Below are positions 17,846 through 24,422 of a DNA stretch of 28,979 bases, one piece after another. Origin of the DNA: a virus; IMG/VR virus record IMGVR_UViG_3300042470_000593, positions 1-28,979 of that record. One strand, written 5' to 3'. The notes below the pieces were generated by a model. It did not search any database. It was given only the letters and a program-made list of their open reading frames with translations, and was not told the origin of the DNA. The position numbers and the translations under genes were made by a program. Positions within the stretch are counted from its first letter, which is position 1; the number at the start of each line of letters is the position of its first letter.

Positions 17846-18991
17846 TCAGTCGATGATCAGCTTCGCGACGAACTCGGGGGCGTGGTTCGTAATACCCACC
17901 CGCTGCTTGCCCACGAACCGGACCTGGTCGAAGGCCGACCGCACTTCGCGGAGGGCATCGACGCGGAACCCGGAGGCCTTGACGGCCACCGCGGTGCTCA
18001 GGCTGAAATCACCGTAGAGGACGAGCGTGCCCGAGGGCATCTGGTTCGTCGTGTAGACCGGCCGGCCGAACACGGTCGGCAGGCTGGCGTCGGCGAGCAT
18101 CATTGTGCCGGTGCCGGCGTTCGCAGCCATCAGGGCACCGTAGCCCTCGGGGCTGCACACCCAAGCGGTATTCGCCGCGAGGGGGTCGACCTTGCCGATC
18201 AGCTCGGCCAGGTCGGCCGCGGTCGTCGCCTTCGCAGACGCGACAGCCACCGACTGCGTCACCTCTCCGACGAGCCCGTCGACACCAGCGGTATTGTCAC
18301 CCTGGAGCCAGGCGTGGTCGATCTTCGAGGCGAACGCCGTCCCGAAGGCCGCGGTCACGAGGGCACCGATGTCCGTCACCGCGTCCTCGATCATGTCGTT
18401 CGACACGTCGAGGATCGAGCGGATGCCGAACAGGTTCACGTCCACGCCAGTCGTGGCGATGTTGGACGGGCTGACTTCGGCCGCCTCGGAGTAGAACGAG
18501 GCCGAGGCCGCGCCCAGCTTCGGGAGCGTGATCTTCTTCGCCAGCGTGCTGACGACGAAGGCCAGCCGAGCGCCCACGCTCGCCCGGTTCAGGACGTTGA
18601 TCACCGAGCTGTAGACCTCGGAGGGCACCAGTTCGGCGCCCAGGTTCGCGCCACCCTCGGACCAGGCGCGAACTTCGCCGCGGGCCAGGCTGCGGAGGTA
18701 CTTGTCTGCGGTGTTGCTCACGACGGTCCCCTTCTTCTCGGCGGTCTCGATCACGCTCCTGGCCTCGCAGTCGTCCACGACGACGGAGCGGAGCGCCTTC
18801 ACCTTGGCGTCGATCTCGTTCTCGATCCGCAGCTCGTTCGTCACCTGCTCGCAGCGGGCGGCAGCCGCCGTGATCTGCTCCTCGATGCTCGCCGACTGCT
18901 CGTCGGAGTCGGGGGTCACGGCCCGCAGCTCCTCGATCTGGGCGGTCAGGGTGGCGGCTTCGTCCTGGAGGCGGCGGCGCTTGAGCGACAT
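17846..18991 (-). CDS. Major capsid protein, HK97 fold
   Basis: The 381-aa product has an N-terminal coiled coil (LQDEAATLTAQIEELRAVTP, about residues 8-75), the delta domain that serves as scaffold and is removed by the prohead protease. The mature part starts near residue 100 and includes GGANLGAELVPSEVYSSVIN, the AEVSPSN region and CSPEGYGALMAANAGTG, all typical of HK97-type capsids. AAGGACT precedes the ATG. A fused scaffold explains the absence of a separate scaffold gene. The gene stands alone between a candidate promoter (19037-19068) and two hairpins, fitting strong, separate expression. Confidence 0.92.
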   Translation of the reverse strand: MSLKRRRLQDEAATLTAQIEELRAVTPDSDEQSASIEEQITAAAARCEQVTNELRIENEIDAKVKALRSVVVDDCEARSVIETAEKKGTVVSNTADKYLRSLARGEVRAWSEGGANLGAELVPSEVYSSVINVLNRASVGARLAFVVSTLAKKITLPKLGAASASFYSEAAEVSPSNIATTGVDVNLFGIRSILDVSNDMIEDAVTDIGALVTAAFGTAFASKIDHAWLQGDNTAGVDGLVGEVTQSVAVASAKATTAADLAELIGKVDPLAANTAWVCSPEGYGALMAANAGTGTMMLADASLPTVFGRPVYTTNQMPSGTLVLYGDFSLSTAVAVKASGFRVDALREVRSAFDQVRFVGKQRVGITNHAPEFVAKLIID

Positions 18992-19076: not shown

Positions 19077-19226
19077 CTACGGCAGAACATTCGCGGAGCC
19101 GGGCTCCATGCTCGCGCGGGCCGCGGCCACGGCGGCGGCCGCCCTCGGGGCCTCGTCGCGCGATGCGACGTCGCCGGCCGACAGCCAGACGAGGAACGCC
19201 AGGATCCAAGACCAGAGCGCGGCCAT
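19077..19226 (-). CDS. Tiny exported or membrane protein, 49 aa
   Basis: The product has one hydrophobic segment (ALWSWILAFLVWLSAGDVAS) resembling a signal peptide or anchor, followed by EAPRAAAAVAAARASMEPGS. I recall tiny planctomycete phage proteins with the same order of a hydrophobic start and an APRAAAAVA stretch. The ATG overlaps the stop of the previous gene (TGATG). It could be a spanin-like or holin-associated factor; no function is known. Confidence 0.55.
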   Translation of the reverse strand: MAALWSWILAFLVWLSAGDVASRDEAPRAAAAVAAARASMEPGSANVLP

Positions 19227-19498
19227 CACCACCCCCTCGCGTGTTCGAGCTGCTGGTAGCCGTCCTCGCCGACCTGGGCTCGGACCAGGTGCTGCGGCTG
19301 GGCCGGCGGCGGGTCGGCCACGATCGCGATCCACAGGAGGCTCTTTGCCGCGCGGGCGATCCAGCGGAGAACCGGACGGTCCGGGGCCGGCGGGGAGAAC
19401 GGGCCGGGGAGCGGAACGGCGCCGGTGGAGTTCCACCAGCCGACCGCCAGGCACAGGGCGCACACGAGCACGAGGTTCCGCTTCGAGATCTCGATCAC
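19226..19498 (-). CDS. Small membrane protein, holin candidate
   Basis: The 90-aa product has a first membrane span (LVLVCALCLAVGWW, about residues 9-22), a Pro-rich loop, a second hydrophobic helix (LRWIARAAKSLLWIAIV, about 44-60), and a polar tail ending HARGW. Two spans in under 100 residues next to an exported protease gene is the layout of many holin genes, so it is a holin candidate. It overlaps the protease gene in ATGA. The Trp-rich end resembles tails I recall from planctomycete phage proteins. Confidence 0.5.
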   Translation of the reverse strand: MIEISKRNLVLVCALCLAVGWWNSTGAVPLPGPFSPPAPDRPVLRWIARAAKSLLWIAIVADPPPAQPQHLVRAQVGEDGYQQLEHARGW

Positions 19499-20562
19499 TT
19501 CTCACCCCCTTCGTCGAGCCAGTCGCCGTGGTGCAGGTCTCGCCATGCGAACCCGTGGACGCCTCCGATCACGAACGAGTCGCCCTGGGCCAGGATCGCG
19601 GCCGCGTCGGCCGGCGAGATCCAGAACGATCCGTCGGGCTGGTCGGCCGGCCACTTTGCCCCGCCCACCCAGCGGTCGCCCCACGAGTTCAACACCAGGA
19701 CTCCGTCCCGCTTGCCTTCGTTCTTCGCGTAGCGGACCGAGCAGATTAGGAGGCAGTGGTTCCACTGCCCGCCCCTTCTCAGGAAGCCGTCAGCGTCCCT
19801 GGTGGTGCTGGCCGCGAAGCCCACGTTGGAGCACACAGGCACACAGAAGCCGGCCTCCAGGGCGGCGCACAGGCCCTCGTACGTCTCGCACAGGGCGACC
19901 GCCTTCGCCGTGTGCTCGTTCGCCCGCTTCGCCAGGTCCGGCGGGACGCCGTACGCTCCCCACTCCTTGGACCTGGGGATCGAGTAAGTGGAGAGATCCG
20001 TCTCGCCGTACTTCTCGCGGTACAGGATCCCGCCGTGGCCGTTCTTCAAGCCGGCCACCCAGCGGGCCGCGGCGGCCCCGTAGGATCCGTCGCTCCAGCC
20101 GGCGAACGTCACAGGCGGGAGTCGGCCGGCCGTGCGGGATCCCCCGTATATGGGCTCGGTGGCGACCAGACGCGGAGCGTCGGCGGTCGCACCCGTGGCC
20201 CAGTCCACCGACTGGCCGATGTACGAACCCATCGCCCAGCCGAACGACACACACGATCCGTGCGAGCCCTGGTTCCACGGACCGAACGGAGTCCCGTAGA
20301 CGGCCCGGTGTGCCCGGTCCGCGTAGCGGTACAGGAACGTGTCCTTCCCCTGCGCCTTCGCCAGGCACTCGGCTCCGGCACTGCGCCAGAGCGGGTCGTC
20401 GAGCTCCCCGAGGAACTCCCGGACGCCTGCCGGGTTCGCGTTGTAGCCGTAGTTGCCGGCGACGAGCGTGCTGGTAGGCCTTGTGGAGTGTGTCCACGCC
20501 AGGCCCGCCAGGGCCACGAGCAGCACGACAACGAAGAACCGGAACGCCTTAGCGTGTGACAT
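19495..20562 (-). CDS. Exported papain-family (C1) cysteine protease
   Basis: The 355-aa product has an N-terminal hydrophobic segment (AFRFFVVVLLVALAGLAW, residues 6-23), a signal peptide or anchor, then a papain-type catalytic domain. Gln98 and Cys104 lie in PWNQGSHGSCVSFGWAMG, His269 in GGQWNHCLLICSV, Asn292 in VLNSWGDRW. All four positions of the C1 family are present. Papain-family enzymes cut proteins; in the periplasm this one could attack the envelope, a surface layer or peptide cross-links. No lysozyme, amidase or other endolysin is recognisable elsewhere, so it may serve lysis. It overlaps the preceding membrane protein gene by 14 bases. Confidence 0.85.
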   Translation of the reverse strand: MSHAKAFRFFVVVLLVALAGLAWTHSTRPTSTLVAGNYGYNANPAGVREFLGELDDPLWRSAGAECLAKAQGKDTFLYRYADRAHRAVYGTPFGPWNQGSHGSCVSFGWAMGSYIGQSVDWATGATADAPRLVATEPIYGGSRTAGRLPPVTFAGWSDGSYGAAAARWVAGLKNGHGGILYREKYGETDLSTYSIPRSKEWGAYGVPPDLAKRANEHTAKAVALCETYEGLCAALEAGFCVPVCSNVGFAASTTRDADGFLRRGGQWNHCLLICSVRYAKNEGKRDGVLVLNSWGDRWVGGAKWPADQPDGSFWISPADAAAILAQGDSFVIGGVHGFAWRDLHHGDWLDEGGEK

Positions 20563-21100
20563 CGGCGGCGGCCCTCGCGATGTCGCGGAACGCCGTGATC
20601 CACCGCGCCCGCTGCTCTGGTGAGATCGGCCCGCCGGACTTGCCGACGGCCTGTTCGAGGTAGGCCGCGATCGCGTCGCGTGCCGCCGGCTGGCGGGCGC
20701 CGATCGAGATCCCGCGGCAACGCAGCTCGCGGGCGCGGTCCCGGAGCGTGTCGATCGAGACTCCTGTCCGGAACATGGGCTCGGGCTGGAGCCCGTCCCA
20801 CTCGATCTCGGCCGCCAGTTCCTCGGTCAGGGCCGCGATCGTGTTCGCATCTTCGGCGGCAGACGGCCCACGGAACAGGCCTCGCAGCACGAGCGGCCCG
20901 GCGTCGGGGGCCGGCGTCGGGGAGGCGTCCCGCTGCGAGCCGGACCAGGAGAGCAGGGCGGCCACCAGCAGGGCGACGGCCAGGGCCTGCCGGGGGCCGA
21001 CCTTCGGAGCGTGCTTCGCCATCAGCTCGCGGATCTGGACGAGCACGTCGGGGCCGGCGAACGCGAACGCAGCCCCCAGGATCAGCGCGGCCGTGATCAT
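20549..21100 (-). CDS. Two-span membrane protein, 183 aa
   Basis: The product has two hydrophobic segments, ITAALILGAAFAFAG (2-16) and ALAVALLVAALLSWSG (39-54), separated by a charged loop, then a Pro-rich hinge and a soluble domain of about 110 residues with paired helices (AALTEELAAEIEWDG; ELRCRGISIGARQPAARDAI). It is coupled by overlaps to the upstream 124-aa gene (ATGA) and to the protease gene (14 bases). Such topology suits an envelope partner for the protease, holin or spanin. No family recognised. Confidence 0.55.
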   Translation of the reverse strand: MITAALILGAAFAFAGPDVLVQIRELMAKHAPKVGPRQALAVALLVAALLSWSGSQRDASPTPAPDAGPLVLRGLFRGPSAAEDANTIAALTEELAAEIEWDGLQPEPMFRTGVSIDTLRDRARELRCRGISIGARQPAARDAIAAYLEQAVGKSGGPISPEQRARWITAFRDIARAAADVTR

Positions 21101-21471
21101 GCGGCGGCCCTCAGTAGCGGCAGGAGCTGCTCGATCGCCCCGGAGGCGAGCGACAGGACGAGCGACCGGACGGCCGGGCGGGCCGCCAGCCATAGCGGCA
21201 GGAGCATCGTCGGGACCGCGTAGTCGGCCACGGAGTCGAACAGAGCGGCGACCGCCTCCAGGACGATCTCCTTCTTCGCCGGGCCGGGCAGATCAAGGAG
21301 TTCGGCGCCTGTGATCGCCAGCCGCAGCAGGCCCACCAGCAGGTCGCCGAACTCGATCCATGTGAGCCCGTCGGACGACACGAGCTTCGCAGTTGTGATG
21401 TAGGCCTTCACGGCCTGGGCGATGTCCGTGTAGGCCGAGCCGGCCCTGATCGGTGCCTCGGAGATGCTCAT
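21097..21471 (-). CDS. Hydrophobic helical protein, 124 aa
   Basis: After a polar start the product contains WIEFGDLLVGLLRLAITGAE, an acidic KKEIVLEAVAALFDSVADY stretch, and a hydrophobic Pro-containing end, LASGAIEQLLPLLRAAA. I recall similar proteins in planctomycete-associated phages, unnamed. It is mostly helical and could associate with membranes. GGAGGAGG precedes the ATG at 21471, and that ATG overlaps the previous stop (ATGA), so this start is preferred over the GTG at 21486. Confidence 0.6.
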   Translation of the reverse strand: MSISEAPIRAGSAYTDIAQAVKAYITTAKLVSSDGLTWIEFGDLLVGLLRLAITGAELLDLPGPAKKEIVLEAVAALFDSVADYAVPTMLLPLWLAARPAVRSLVLSLASGAIEQLLPLLRAAA

Positions 21472-21632
21472 CGTTTCCTCCTCCACACGAGACCGGCTGG
21501 GACTTCACGCGATCGCCGTGCCCGGCAGGCCGGGCAGACGAGATACTGGAGCTGCACGTCGGCCGAGGCCTGCTTCGAGGTCGCGACCCGCATACGCTCG
21601 CCGCAGCGTGTGCAGTTGGCCGGCGTGCTCAC
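21468..21632 (-). CDS. Zinc-ribbon-like protein, 54 aa
   Basis: The product has two Cys-x-x-Cys pairs, NCTRCGERMR and LVCPACRARR, 22 residues apart, with a basic end VWRRKR. This is a small zinc ribbon, as in Com-like phage translational regulators and other nucleic-acid-binding proteins. It starts at GTG (21632) in a GTGA overlap with the protease-HAD stop and couples to the next gene in ATGA. A regulatory role for the insert downstream of it is possible but not shown. Confidence 0.7.
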   Translation of the reverse strand: MSTPANCTRCGERMRVATSKQASADVQLQYLVCPACRARRSREVPAGLVWRRKR

Positions 21633-22588
21633 GAGGCCTCCGCGTTCATCCGGGCGGCGGCGGCCGCCGCTGCGGCCTTTGCCCCCAGGAGCGTCGAGAC
21701 CTTGAACGACCTGGTCGTCGCCTCGGGGATCGTCTCGGGCGTGTCGTCGATCCAGATGTCGACCTCCAGGCCGGCGGCCTGGGCCGCGGCCCGCTTCTGC
21801 TCGCCGGGGCCGCAGAGCACAAGGGCCGACAGCCCGTCGAAGGAGTCGCCGAAGGCGTCCCGGACAGCGGCCCGGTTCTCCTCGGTGTCCTCGCGCCTCG
21901 TGATGCAGCAGACGCGGTTCCCGCGGGAGACCGCGTCGGCGATGAAGGACCGCCAGAGCCCAGGCGCCGCTGTGAACGTCTGGTCGAAGTCGATCGAGAT
22001 CTGGAGCCCGCCGTCGGCGGCCACGGCCCGCGCGGCCTTCCAGGCCTCGATCGAGCGGAGCCCGAGGGACGACGAGGGGTAGGCGGCCCGGGTCACTGGC
22101 GACACGTCGTATAGGCCCGCGGCCTCGTGGATCGTCCGGATCGGGTTGCCCTTCTCGTCCGCCGTCCACTGCTCGCCGCCGGCACTGACGGAGAACGCGA
22201 ACGAGCTGCCGTAGATAGTCTTCGAGCGGATCAGAACGGCCAGATCGCGGCCGAGCTGCGTCTCGGGGAGGTCCATCTCGTAGGCCAGGCCGCGCGAGTC
22301 CTTCTGGATCCGGAGCGTGCCGTTCGTGGTCCGCGACAGAACCTGGGAGTCGTCGTGGTTGAACAGGCCCACGACATCGACCGGGCCGCGCGGGTCGTTC
22401 TTGTGCCGGCCGAGGATCTTGTCGAACGCCGTTGAGGCGAACTTCTCGCGGAACCCGCCCAGGTCCACGGACAGGCTGTCCCACGGCGGGGCGATGCCGC
22501 GGATCACGACCGGGCCGTCCGCCCTGGCCTCGATTCCCAGGCCGTCGTCCCCGAGGTCCGCGAAGGAGAGGTAGCGTCGTTCGAGCAT
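21629..22588 (-). CDS. Prohead protease (S78) fused to a HAD-like domain
   Basis: Residues 1-165 match the HK97 prohead protease family: LFNHDDSQVL with His78, YGSSFAFSV with Ser129, and Glu155 in TIHEAAGLYDVSPV, the usual His-Ser-Glu set. It would trim the capsid delta domain. From about residue 195 a second domain begins: ISIDFDQTFTA (Asp200 and Asp202, HAD motif I), CCITRRED (Thr230, motif II), Lys265 in GPGEQKRAA, and DIWIDDTPETI (Asp281/Asp282, motif IV). So the four HAD phosphatase motifs appear in order. The join at EAWKAARAVAADGG is smooth, with no frameshift. Usual prohead proteases are about 180-220 aa. The HAD activity and its substrate are unknown. Confidence 0.85.
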   Translation of the reverse strand: MLERRYLSFADLGDDGLGIEARADGPVVIRGIAPPWDSLSVDLGGFREKFASTAFDKILGRHKNDPRGPVDVVGLFNHDDSQVLSRTTNGTLRIQKDSRGLAYEMDLPETQLGRDLAVLIRSKTIYGSSFAFSVSAGGEQWTADEKGNPIRTIHEAAGLYDVSPVTRAAYPSSSLGLRSIEAWKAARAVAADGGLQISIDFDQTFTAAPGLWRSFIADAVSRGNRVCCITRREDTEENRAAVRDAFGDSFDGLSALVLCGPGEQKRAAAQAAGLEVDIWIDDTPETIPEATTRSFKVSTLLGAKAAAAAAAARMNAEAS

Positions 22589-22601: not shown

Positions 22602-24422
22602 TCAGATCGTGGAGAGAAACGACTCGATGTCCGCGTAGACCTGGTCGAGACCGGAGGACTCTTTCGCCAGCACGGCCAGCAGATCGGCAGCCTCCAGAAG
22701 CAGCGCCTCGACTTCGTTCATGTCCTGATCTATGCCGCGTTTGCCGAACTTTTCGGCGATCTGCTTCATCTTCTGCTCGTACTTTGCGCGAGCTGCTGCG
22801 ACCTTCTCCTCCTTGACCCTGGCGATGTCCTTCATCCGGGCGGCAAAATGCTCGGCTGCGCTTTTCTTGGCCCCATCCATCGCGGCGAGCTTCTGCTCCA
22901 GCTCGGCCTTCTGTTTCTTCAGCCCTTCAAGCTTCTTTGAGATCTTCTGAACTTCCCTGTCTGCTTCCTTCTGCGTGCCCTCAATTCGATCTCGCAGTCG
23001 CTCGCGTCGTACTTTCTGCTGTGGTGTAGCCGGCTGTGAATCGGACCCTCCAACCACTCCAGAACCTCCTGACGAACCACCTCCGCCGCCGCCTGCGCCG
23101 TCACCGCCACCTTCACCGCCAGAGCCGCCGCCCGCGAATTGTCCGTTTGGGTCGCGCGGCTGATCTGATGAATAACGAAACGAGCGGCTGGACTGCTGCC
23201 CGGCCGCCTGCTGTGCCGCCGCCCCCAGCGTCGAGAACCCGAGCTGCACGTAGGTCTCGTCGGCCGCGGGATCGTCGAGGAGCGGCAGGTCTTCGAGGTC
23301 GCGGATCTCGTTCGGGCGGATCGCGCCCATCGACCACATCGCCTGATAGAGCTGCGACCGGGCGGCCGTGTCGCCACGGAGCAGGCCGCGGCCGTCGAGC
23401 TTCGCGTAGACCCCGTCGTAGGTCGACAGGATCGAGCGGTCGATCGCGCCCTCCAGCCGCCGCTGCCAGGGCAGCAGGCAAAACACTTGGGCGGTAAGGA
23501 ACTCCTGTTCCACGTTCGACCATCGCGCCATCGCGGAGTCACCCACGAGGGTCGAGGGCACACCGAAGGCCCGGGCGATCTCGCCGACCAGGGCGTTCCG
23601 CAGCTCTTGGAAGCCGGACGCCTCCTGACTGTCGCCCTGGAGCGTCTTTGCCTGGACCTTCTTCGGGAGGACAGCCGTCCGGCCGCGGTTCCGCGGGCCG
23701 CCGTACATCTCCCGCCACTGCTCGCGGAGCGTGTTCATCGCCTCGGCCGGGATCTGCTCCTGTGTCTCCAGGACGATGTCCGGCCGCGCGGCGTTGTCCC
23801 AGTAGGCCGAGGCGGCGGTGTCGAGTTTGCGGGCCAGGGCGATCGACGTGCCGCACAGCTCGGCAGGCACCATCCCGAGGTAGCCGTTATCGGAGAGCCA
23901 TCGGACGTGAAGGATCTCGTCCTGCGAGAAGATCCGCGACTCGTTCCCGTCGCCCATGTACGAGTAGGAGAGCGACTTGTCGGCCAGCCGGCTGACCGTC
24001 ATTCGCGACGGGTGCAGCGGCTCCAGCGACTGGAGGAACCCGCGCGGCCCCGGCACGATCCGGCAGTAGGAGTTCCCGTAGAGGGCGGTGTGATGGATCA
24101 CGAGCTCGGTCAGCTCGTAGGAGGACATCCAGCCGTTGGGCCGCTTGGTCAGAACCCTGTAGGTGTCGCCGGGGAGATCTTCGGCCTTCACGCGGCGGCC
24201 GTTCGGCAGCGTCCGCATGATGTGGAGCGGCATCGACGCCAGCGACTGCGCCAGGAACCGGACACACGCCAGGATCGCCGTGACCCGGATCGCCGTGTGT
24301 GGGGCGATCTCGTGGTATCCGTCGAGCGCCCAGCCCGTGGGAATCGACCGCAACTCCAGCGGCTTTGAGGCCGTCTTGCGCCGGGACGGCCTTCGGGCGG
24401 CGGGCTGCTTCTTCGCGGTCAT
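22602..24422 (-). CDS. Portal protein with C-terminal coiled-coil extension
   Basis: Residues 1-400 form an HK97-type portal: IRVTAILACVRFLAQSLASM, NPx-like GNSYCRIVPGPRG, DEILHVRWLSDNGYLGMVP, FGVPSTLVGDSAMARWSNVE and MGAIRPNEIRDLEDLPLLD are all family blocks. It forms the ring through which DNA enters. The usual length is about 400-430 aa. Here RDPNGQFAGGG (about residue 422), a Gly/Ser linker (430-460) and a 130-residue Lys/Glu/Ala coiled coil (about 468-600) follow. The extension's DNA is less GC-rich than the portal part, suggesting a later addition. It may act as an internal scaffold or bind another head protein. It overlaps terL by four bases. Confidence 0.9.
   Translation of the reverse strand: MTAKKQPAARRPSRRKTASKPLELRSIPTGWALDGYHEIAPHTAIRVTAILACVRFLAQSLASMPLHIMRTLPNGRRVKAEDLPGDTYRVLTKRPNGWMSSYELTELVIHHTALYGNSYCRIVPGPRGFLQSLEPLHPSRMTVSRLADKSLSYSYMGDGNESRIFSQDEILHVRWLSDNGYLGMVPAELCGTSIALARKLDTAASAYWDNAARPDIVLETQEQIPAEAMNTLREQWREMYGGPRNRGRTAVLPKKVQAKTLQGDSQEASGFQELRNALVGEIARAFGVPSTLVGDSAMARWSNVEQEFLTAQVFCLLPWQRRLEGAIDRSILSTYDGVYAKLDGRGLLRGDTAARSQLYQAMWSMGAIRPNEIRDLEDLPLLDDPAADETYVQLGFSTLGAAAQQAAGQQSSRSFRYSSDQPRDPNGQFAGGGSGGEGGGDGAGGGGGGSSGGSGVVGGSDSQPATPQQKVRRERLRDRIEGTQKEADREVQKISKKLEGLKKQKAELEQKLAAMDGAKKSAAEHFAARMKDIARVKEEKVAAARAKYEQKMKQIAEKFGKRGIDQDMNEVEALLLEAADLLAVLAKESSGLDQVYADIESFLSTI

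Follow-up and report, generated by a model that had tools for sequence, protein, structure and literature searches.

A movable late gene module built around a papain-like protease in planctomycete phages: a possible lysis cassette

The closest described systems are the holin-endolysin cassettes, such as lambda S-R-Rz or those with the SAR endolysins of P1 and 21. These are compact, movable late modules in which membrane proteins stand beside the enzyme, the latter being exported or signal-anchored in some cases. They are placed either ahead of the terminase or last among the late genes. In lambda, the lysis genes directly precede the terminase region. Cysteine peptidases also serve phage or virus lysis: PeiW and PeiP of methanogen viruses are pseudomurein endopeptidases of the C71 transglutaminase-like family. 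In mycobacteriophage LysA, the papain-family (C39-like) domain N5 cuts wall peptides as one domain of modular multi-domain endolysins (PMC3314691). CHAP and NlpC/P60 enzymes of the papain superfamily likewise cut wall peptides (PMC10318531). The module described here shares compactness, mobility, position and membrane neighbours with the holin-endolysin cassettes. It differs from them in that a papain-type protease, predicted to be exported, replaces the peptidoglycan hydrolase, that a membrane protein of unknown fold (M214) is its constant partner and that no spanins are recognisable.

The stretch of DNA analysed (the window) is a linear virus record of 28,979 bases, possibly a fragment and probably incomplete, with nearly all genes on the minus strand. 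It carries an HK97-type siphovirus set of small and large terminase, HNH, portal (PF04860), S78 prohead protease and capsid (PF05065), together with connectors, tail genes, a tape measure protein, a collagen-like protein and an integrase. The S78 protease (21629–22588, minus strand; PF04586, E 7e-35; PHROG 80), which has an extra C-terminal domain, and the HK97-type major capsid protein (17846–18991, minus strand; PF05065, E 1e-28) are the upstream and downstream borders of a slot holding six ORFs. All six ORFs of the preliminary description are present, close to where it had placed them; they lie on the minus strand, overlapping or abutting. They are linked by start/stop overlaps (GTGA, ATGA, ATGA, a 14-base overlap, GTGA and TGATG), and no promoter- or terminator-like sites were seen between them.

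The first ORF, a 54-aa zinc ribbon (ZnR, 21468–21632, minus strand), had been counted in the set. In four more distant relatives of the window phage (L155, L159, L163 and L165), the gene order is S78-ZnR-capsid with nothing else in between. These relatives without the cassette thus reveal an insertion slot and place ZnR in the head module, which rules it out as a cassette member. The cassette consists of the five remaining genes, HOL129, M214, the C1 protease, M90 and T49, which form a separate module. They are co-directional with the late head genes and overlap them. The cassette is not a head gene set, and it is new to all the family libraries used: searches with its genes in Pfam, PHROG, NCBIfam and PADLOC gave no useful match.

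Two head proteins of the window carry unusual segments. The extra domain of the S78 protease matches phrog_4919/4256, of unknown function there, and displays by eye a HAD-phosphatase-like motif (ISIDFDQTF...WIDDTPE). In the portal protein (22602–24422), a glycine-rich linker is found together with a long coiled-coil tail at the C-terminus (about residues 415–606). Contigs L169–L173 match the portal query over this tail only, which gives the impression of a scaffold-like segment gained by fusion or exchange.

C1 (355 aa, 19495–20562, minus strand) is confidently assigned as a papain-like (C1A-type) cysteine protease on the basis of its motif, an AlphaFold model and Foldseek. The AF2 model, obtained with 37 aligned relatives as input, had a pLDDT of 85. 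Its best Foldseek match was xylellain (3ois, E 9.5e-10), followed by cathepsins, and 234 PDB chains matched at E ≤ 0.001. The tetrad residues Q98 (20269–20271) and the nucleophile C104 (20251–20253), both in the active-site stretch QGSHGSC (20251–20271), H269 (19756–19758) and N292 of the NSWG motif (19687–19689), occur in the right order and were invariant in 69/69 distinct sequences, as were C244 and C270. The fold match and the tetrad agree with the papain-type protease and C104 nucleophile proposed in the preliminary description. While fold and Q-C-H-N tetrad are shared with xylellain and other C1A peptidases, C1 differs from these by an identity of 16–17%, below PF00112 detection, and by being a phage protein with a predicted membrane anchor. 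Since the Pfam C1 profile PF00112 gave no match to it at E ≤ 1, nor in the genome search, we term the protein C1A-like and not a PF00112 member. C1 was not recognised by Pfam, NCBIfam or PHROGs and matched no known peptidoglycan hydrolase family; a PDB sequence search gave nothing meaningful, matches being obtained by fold search alone.

Export of C1 is predicted from a membrane/signal segment at its N-terminus, located at about residues 3–26 in the window. A hydrophobic segment of this type was found in 80/80 viral C1 copies (the best 80 of 136 stretches). Penetration of the envelope from the virion, also envisaged earlier, is therefore unlikely. If it acts in lysis, C1 would, like LysA N5, bring a papain-superfamily peptidase to phage lysis, and Foldseek detected weak similarity to some LysA proteins. 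In contrast to N5, it is a single-domain protein of the cathepsin/xylellain type, with predicted export. It would also parallel PeiW and PeiP as a cysteine peptidase used for lysis of a host with a special wall.

Upstream of C1 lies M214 (183 aa, 20549–21100, minus strand), its constant neighbour. The window protein is composed of two N-terminal spans, a Pro-rich linker and a helical domain of ~110 aa predicted to be periplasmic. The two spans noted earlier are thus present in the window, but several homologs have one only. Its AF2 model (pLDDT 88) found no significant match in a fold search against the PDB; a propeptide of the cathepsin type is one conceivable identity. The first cassette gene, HOL129 (21097–21471, minus strand), encodes a hydrophobic protein of 124 aa, or 129 aa when read from an upstream GTG (to 21486). 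It is a holin candidate, and it belongs to no Pfam, NCBIfam or PADLOC family.

Downstream of C1, M90 (19226–19498, minus strand) is a 90-aa membrane protein with a conserved pattern, PxRPV...AKxAKxGLW..AEPxP...GW. Lipobox-like strings occur in 33/57 M90 sequences, but the hydrophobic stretch that precedes the Cys is very short, and the window M90 has no such string. T49 (49 aa, 19077–19226, minus strand), with an N-terminal hydrophobic Trp-rich helix, is found in most cassette loci; its relatives end with a CxxGxC motif in 6/7 sequences checked, and this motif is absent from the window T49. Elsewhere, a three-span protein resembling GlsB/YeaQ was present in 45 of the 72 cassettes with enough flank, one such protein passing the PF04226 cut-off, and in some carriers a 59–65-aa two-span protein replaces it or is added to it. 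The GlsB/YeaQ-like family is otherwise known from bacterial stress genes; the phage proteins (e.g. L100:3243-3497) could have a holin role. No small protein with 1–3 spans near C1 reached the cut-off of a holin family, the best being Phage_holin_3_2 with E 0.041.

C1 is encoded in 136 viral-contig stretches, the best 80 loci being 57–96% identical, an occurrence far beyond chance. None of the 50,697 phage records scanned encodes a C1 relative. Co-conservation was counted over 88 loci, of which 71 or 72 had enough flank. M214 was directly upstream of C1 in 67/71 and HOL129 upstream in 58/71, while M90 was found downstream in 65/72 and a T49 relative nearby, also in 65/72. The co-conservation expected for six genes therefore holds for M214, HOL129, M90 and T49 with C1, the zinc ribbon lying outside. 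Comparison of distance matrices was not discriminating, with rho of 0.34–0.42 for C1 against its partners and 0.20–0.60 against head genes.

The cassette occupies at least three genome positions: between S78/ZnR and capsid, in the window and its close terminase relatives; upstream of the terminase (e.g. G002, G007, L024 and L048); and after the tail genes beside a strand switch (e.g. G003, G009 and G013). Its location within the head module, previously regarded as a clue, is consequently not supported as one. Carrier portals are of PF04860, PF05136 and SU10/P22 types (HK97-, lambda- and SU10/P22-type), showing that the cassette is common to the carriers and the heads are not. The cassette genes therefore move as a group between phages whose head and portal genes are unrelated. 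Some contigs of this collection deserve separate mention. A CsrA-family regulator (PF02599) is encoded in carriers L100/L101 (G013) and L089–L092 (G010), with E 4.5e-12 and 7.9e-16. The 77-kb G010 (L089–L092) matches head-tail joining and cement proteins twice and may represent two joined phages or a duplication. Contig L085, with the synteny of the window phage, is binned as an alphaproteobacterial MAG and is probably a misbinned virus sequence.

A scan of bacterial genomes located the C1 gene in the Blastopirellula marina DSM 3645 chromosome and also in MAGs of planctomycetes. A C1 relative was present in 12/392 planctomycete genomes, and in 1/395 genomes of the phylum of Mucilaginibacter, that one being the seed itself. 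Four planctomycete genomes, G026 (B. marina), G149, G361 and G367, carry the cassette in prophages, just upstream of the terminase region, in line with the planctomycete hosts suspected earlier. The order in these prophages is HOL129, usually a 97–105-aa protein, M214 and C1, followed usually by an M90-like protein of 97–109 aa, a thioredoxin-like protein and genes that run up to the terminase. When single-sequence profiles were compared, M214 was clearly identified upstream of C1 in 5 of the 12 planctomycete genome loci, with one borderline case; the remaining loci carry membrane proteins at this position which were not recognised as M214 homologs. An independent M214 search gave 5 matches in the 392 genomes, all 5 beside C1.

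The distant planctomycete C1 genes adjoin small membrane proteins, several of them among phage genes, and some of the encoded proteins are without a signal segment. Such an arrangement, a signal-less C1 beside small membrane proteins, is reminiscent of cytoplasmic endolysins which depend on a holin. Other distant copies were seen in chromosomes. L147 and L150, in chromosomes of planctomycetes with no evident phage genes near, are flanked by membrane and lipoprotein-like proteins and are possibly domesticated. The Mucilaginibacter loci L086 and L087 are chromosomal relatives with 37–39% identity and without cassette partners, a cellular branch of the family; the L086 copy has no signal segment and lies among ordinary chromosomal genes.

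We propose that HOL129-M214-C1-M90-T49 is a movable late module by which planctomycete phages break through the envelope of the host when infection ends, a reading that we hold to be, on balance, probable. It is suggested by a cassette which is movable, late, co-directional with morphogenesis genes and located at lysis-typical positions, by the membrane proteins around a predicted exported hydrolase, and by the lack of another recognisable lysin. Like phage lysis cassettes, it is movable and sits among late genes, where lysis genes are typically located; a muralytic enzyme of known family was recognised neither in C1 nor in the other carrier ORFs scanned. Five carriers (the window, the B. marina prophage, G013, G018 and G010, the largest of 60–77 kb) were scanned with Pfam over all or most of their ORFs; at a cut-off of E ≤ 1e-4 (1e-3 in the case of B. 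marina) no peptidoglycan hydrolase family was revealed. Nor did Amidase_2, SLT or Phage_lysozyme exceed the cut-off in any of 26 records. The absence of an endolysin in carriers is suggestive but weak evidence, since every virus record may be incomplete and since a 24-kb fragment of a relative that lacks the cassette shows no recognisable endolysin either. The earlier statement that there is no classical endolysin thus holds for the 29-kb window but, this being a linear and probably incomplete record, shows less than was implied.

The planctomycete wall itself is peptidoglycan and lysozyme-sensitive (PMC4432640). The host with an unusual envelope invoked in the preliminary description is thus not required. 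The same property implies that an enzyme cutting proteins alone might not open the wall, so that C1 must either cut wall peptides or work with an unseen lysin. The second option leads to a different reading, in which C1 is an auxiliary late enzyme clearing envelope or periplasmic proteins (an S-layer-like coat or membrane-wall anchors), much as a spanin or outer-layer helper would; the wall itself would be opened by an endolysin too divergent to be recognised or located off the fragment. Proteins are the normal substrates of C1A enzymes, endolysins can be very divergent and all records may be fragments; the lysozyme-sensitive wall and the C1-less relative point the same way. This reading is doubtful, given that the five scanned carriers provided no hydrolase candidate and that the cassette with its small membrane proteins sits at classical lysis positions.

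Other roles would place C1 outside lysis. An exported protease with membrane proteins could alter the surface of the host, either in the course of infection or in the lysogen, through superinfection exclusion, receptor removal or lysogenic conversion, and the integrase gene of the window and the prophage state of some carriers would be compatible with this. We find it improbable, however: the genes overlap and are co-directional with late head genes, no separate promoter- or terminator-like site was seen for them, and PADLOC, whose models cover known anti-phage defence systems, returned no match for the cassette proteins. Counter-defence, by degradation of periplasmic or membrane defence proteins of the host, would also suit a phage protease that is conserved, mobile and accompanied by a conserved anchor, but C1 is found very widely next to holin-like proteins and in late operons, which makes this highly improbable. 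As to a role in head assembly, or in entry as a virion-borne enzyme, the location of the window C1 between the prohead protease and capsid genes is the point in its favour. Head maturation is ruled out by the varying position of the cassette and by the phage's own, dedicated S78 protease; with the N-terminal segment of every viral copy taken into account, we give a head or virion role very little credence.

Under the proposed lysis function, the cassette proteins would be made together with the late genes. C1 would be exported across the inner membrane and stay anchored there or bound to the periplasmic domain of M214, which would keep it ready or inactive. According to its predicted topology, M214 may thus be the natural anchor or safety catch for C1. 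HOL129, M90 and, elsewhere, the two-span or GlsB/YeaQ-like three-span protein would bring about membrane collapse or trigger release. Active C1 would then cut envelope peptides, either stem peptides of the wall or envelope proteins, and the cell would open. A thiol-redox step may intervene in some carriers. Thioredoxin-like proteins, present in the four prophages and in L145, and the CxxGxC tails of T49 relatives suggest thiol control of C1 in these cases; since the window T49 is devoid of this motif, such control would not be general. A bolder version, in which planctomycete phages lyse by proteolysis of a load-bearing envelope protein, with M214 as safety catch and no peptidoglycan hydrolase at all, appears to us rather unlikely.

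Going by phrase searches of the literature, the exit route of planctomycete phages is apparently undescribed, and our literature search brought up no description of planctomycete phages carrying genes of this kind. M214, HOL129, M90 and T49, hitherto unnamed families, are here assigned to one functional unit, which offers a means of detecting planctomycete phages in metagenomes. The module is present in a sequenced isolate, B. marina DSM 3645, and one catalytic mutation makes the question directly testable. If the cassette lyses cells, a cathepsin-type protease would join the known lysis enzymes, and its action would reveal what holds the planctomycete envelope together.
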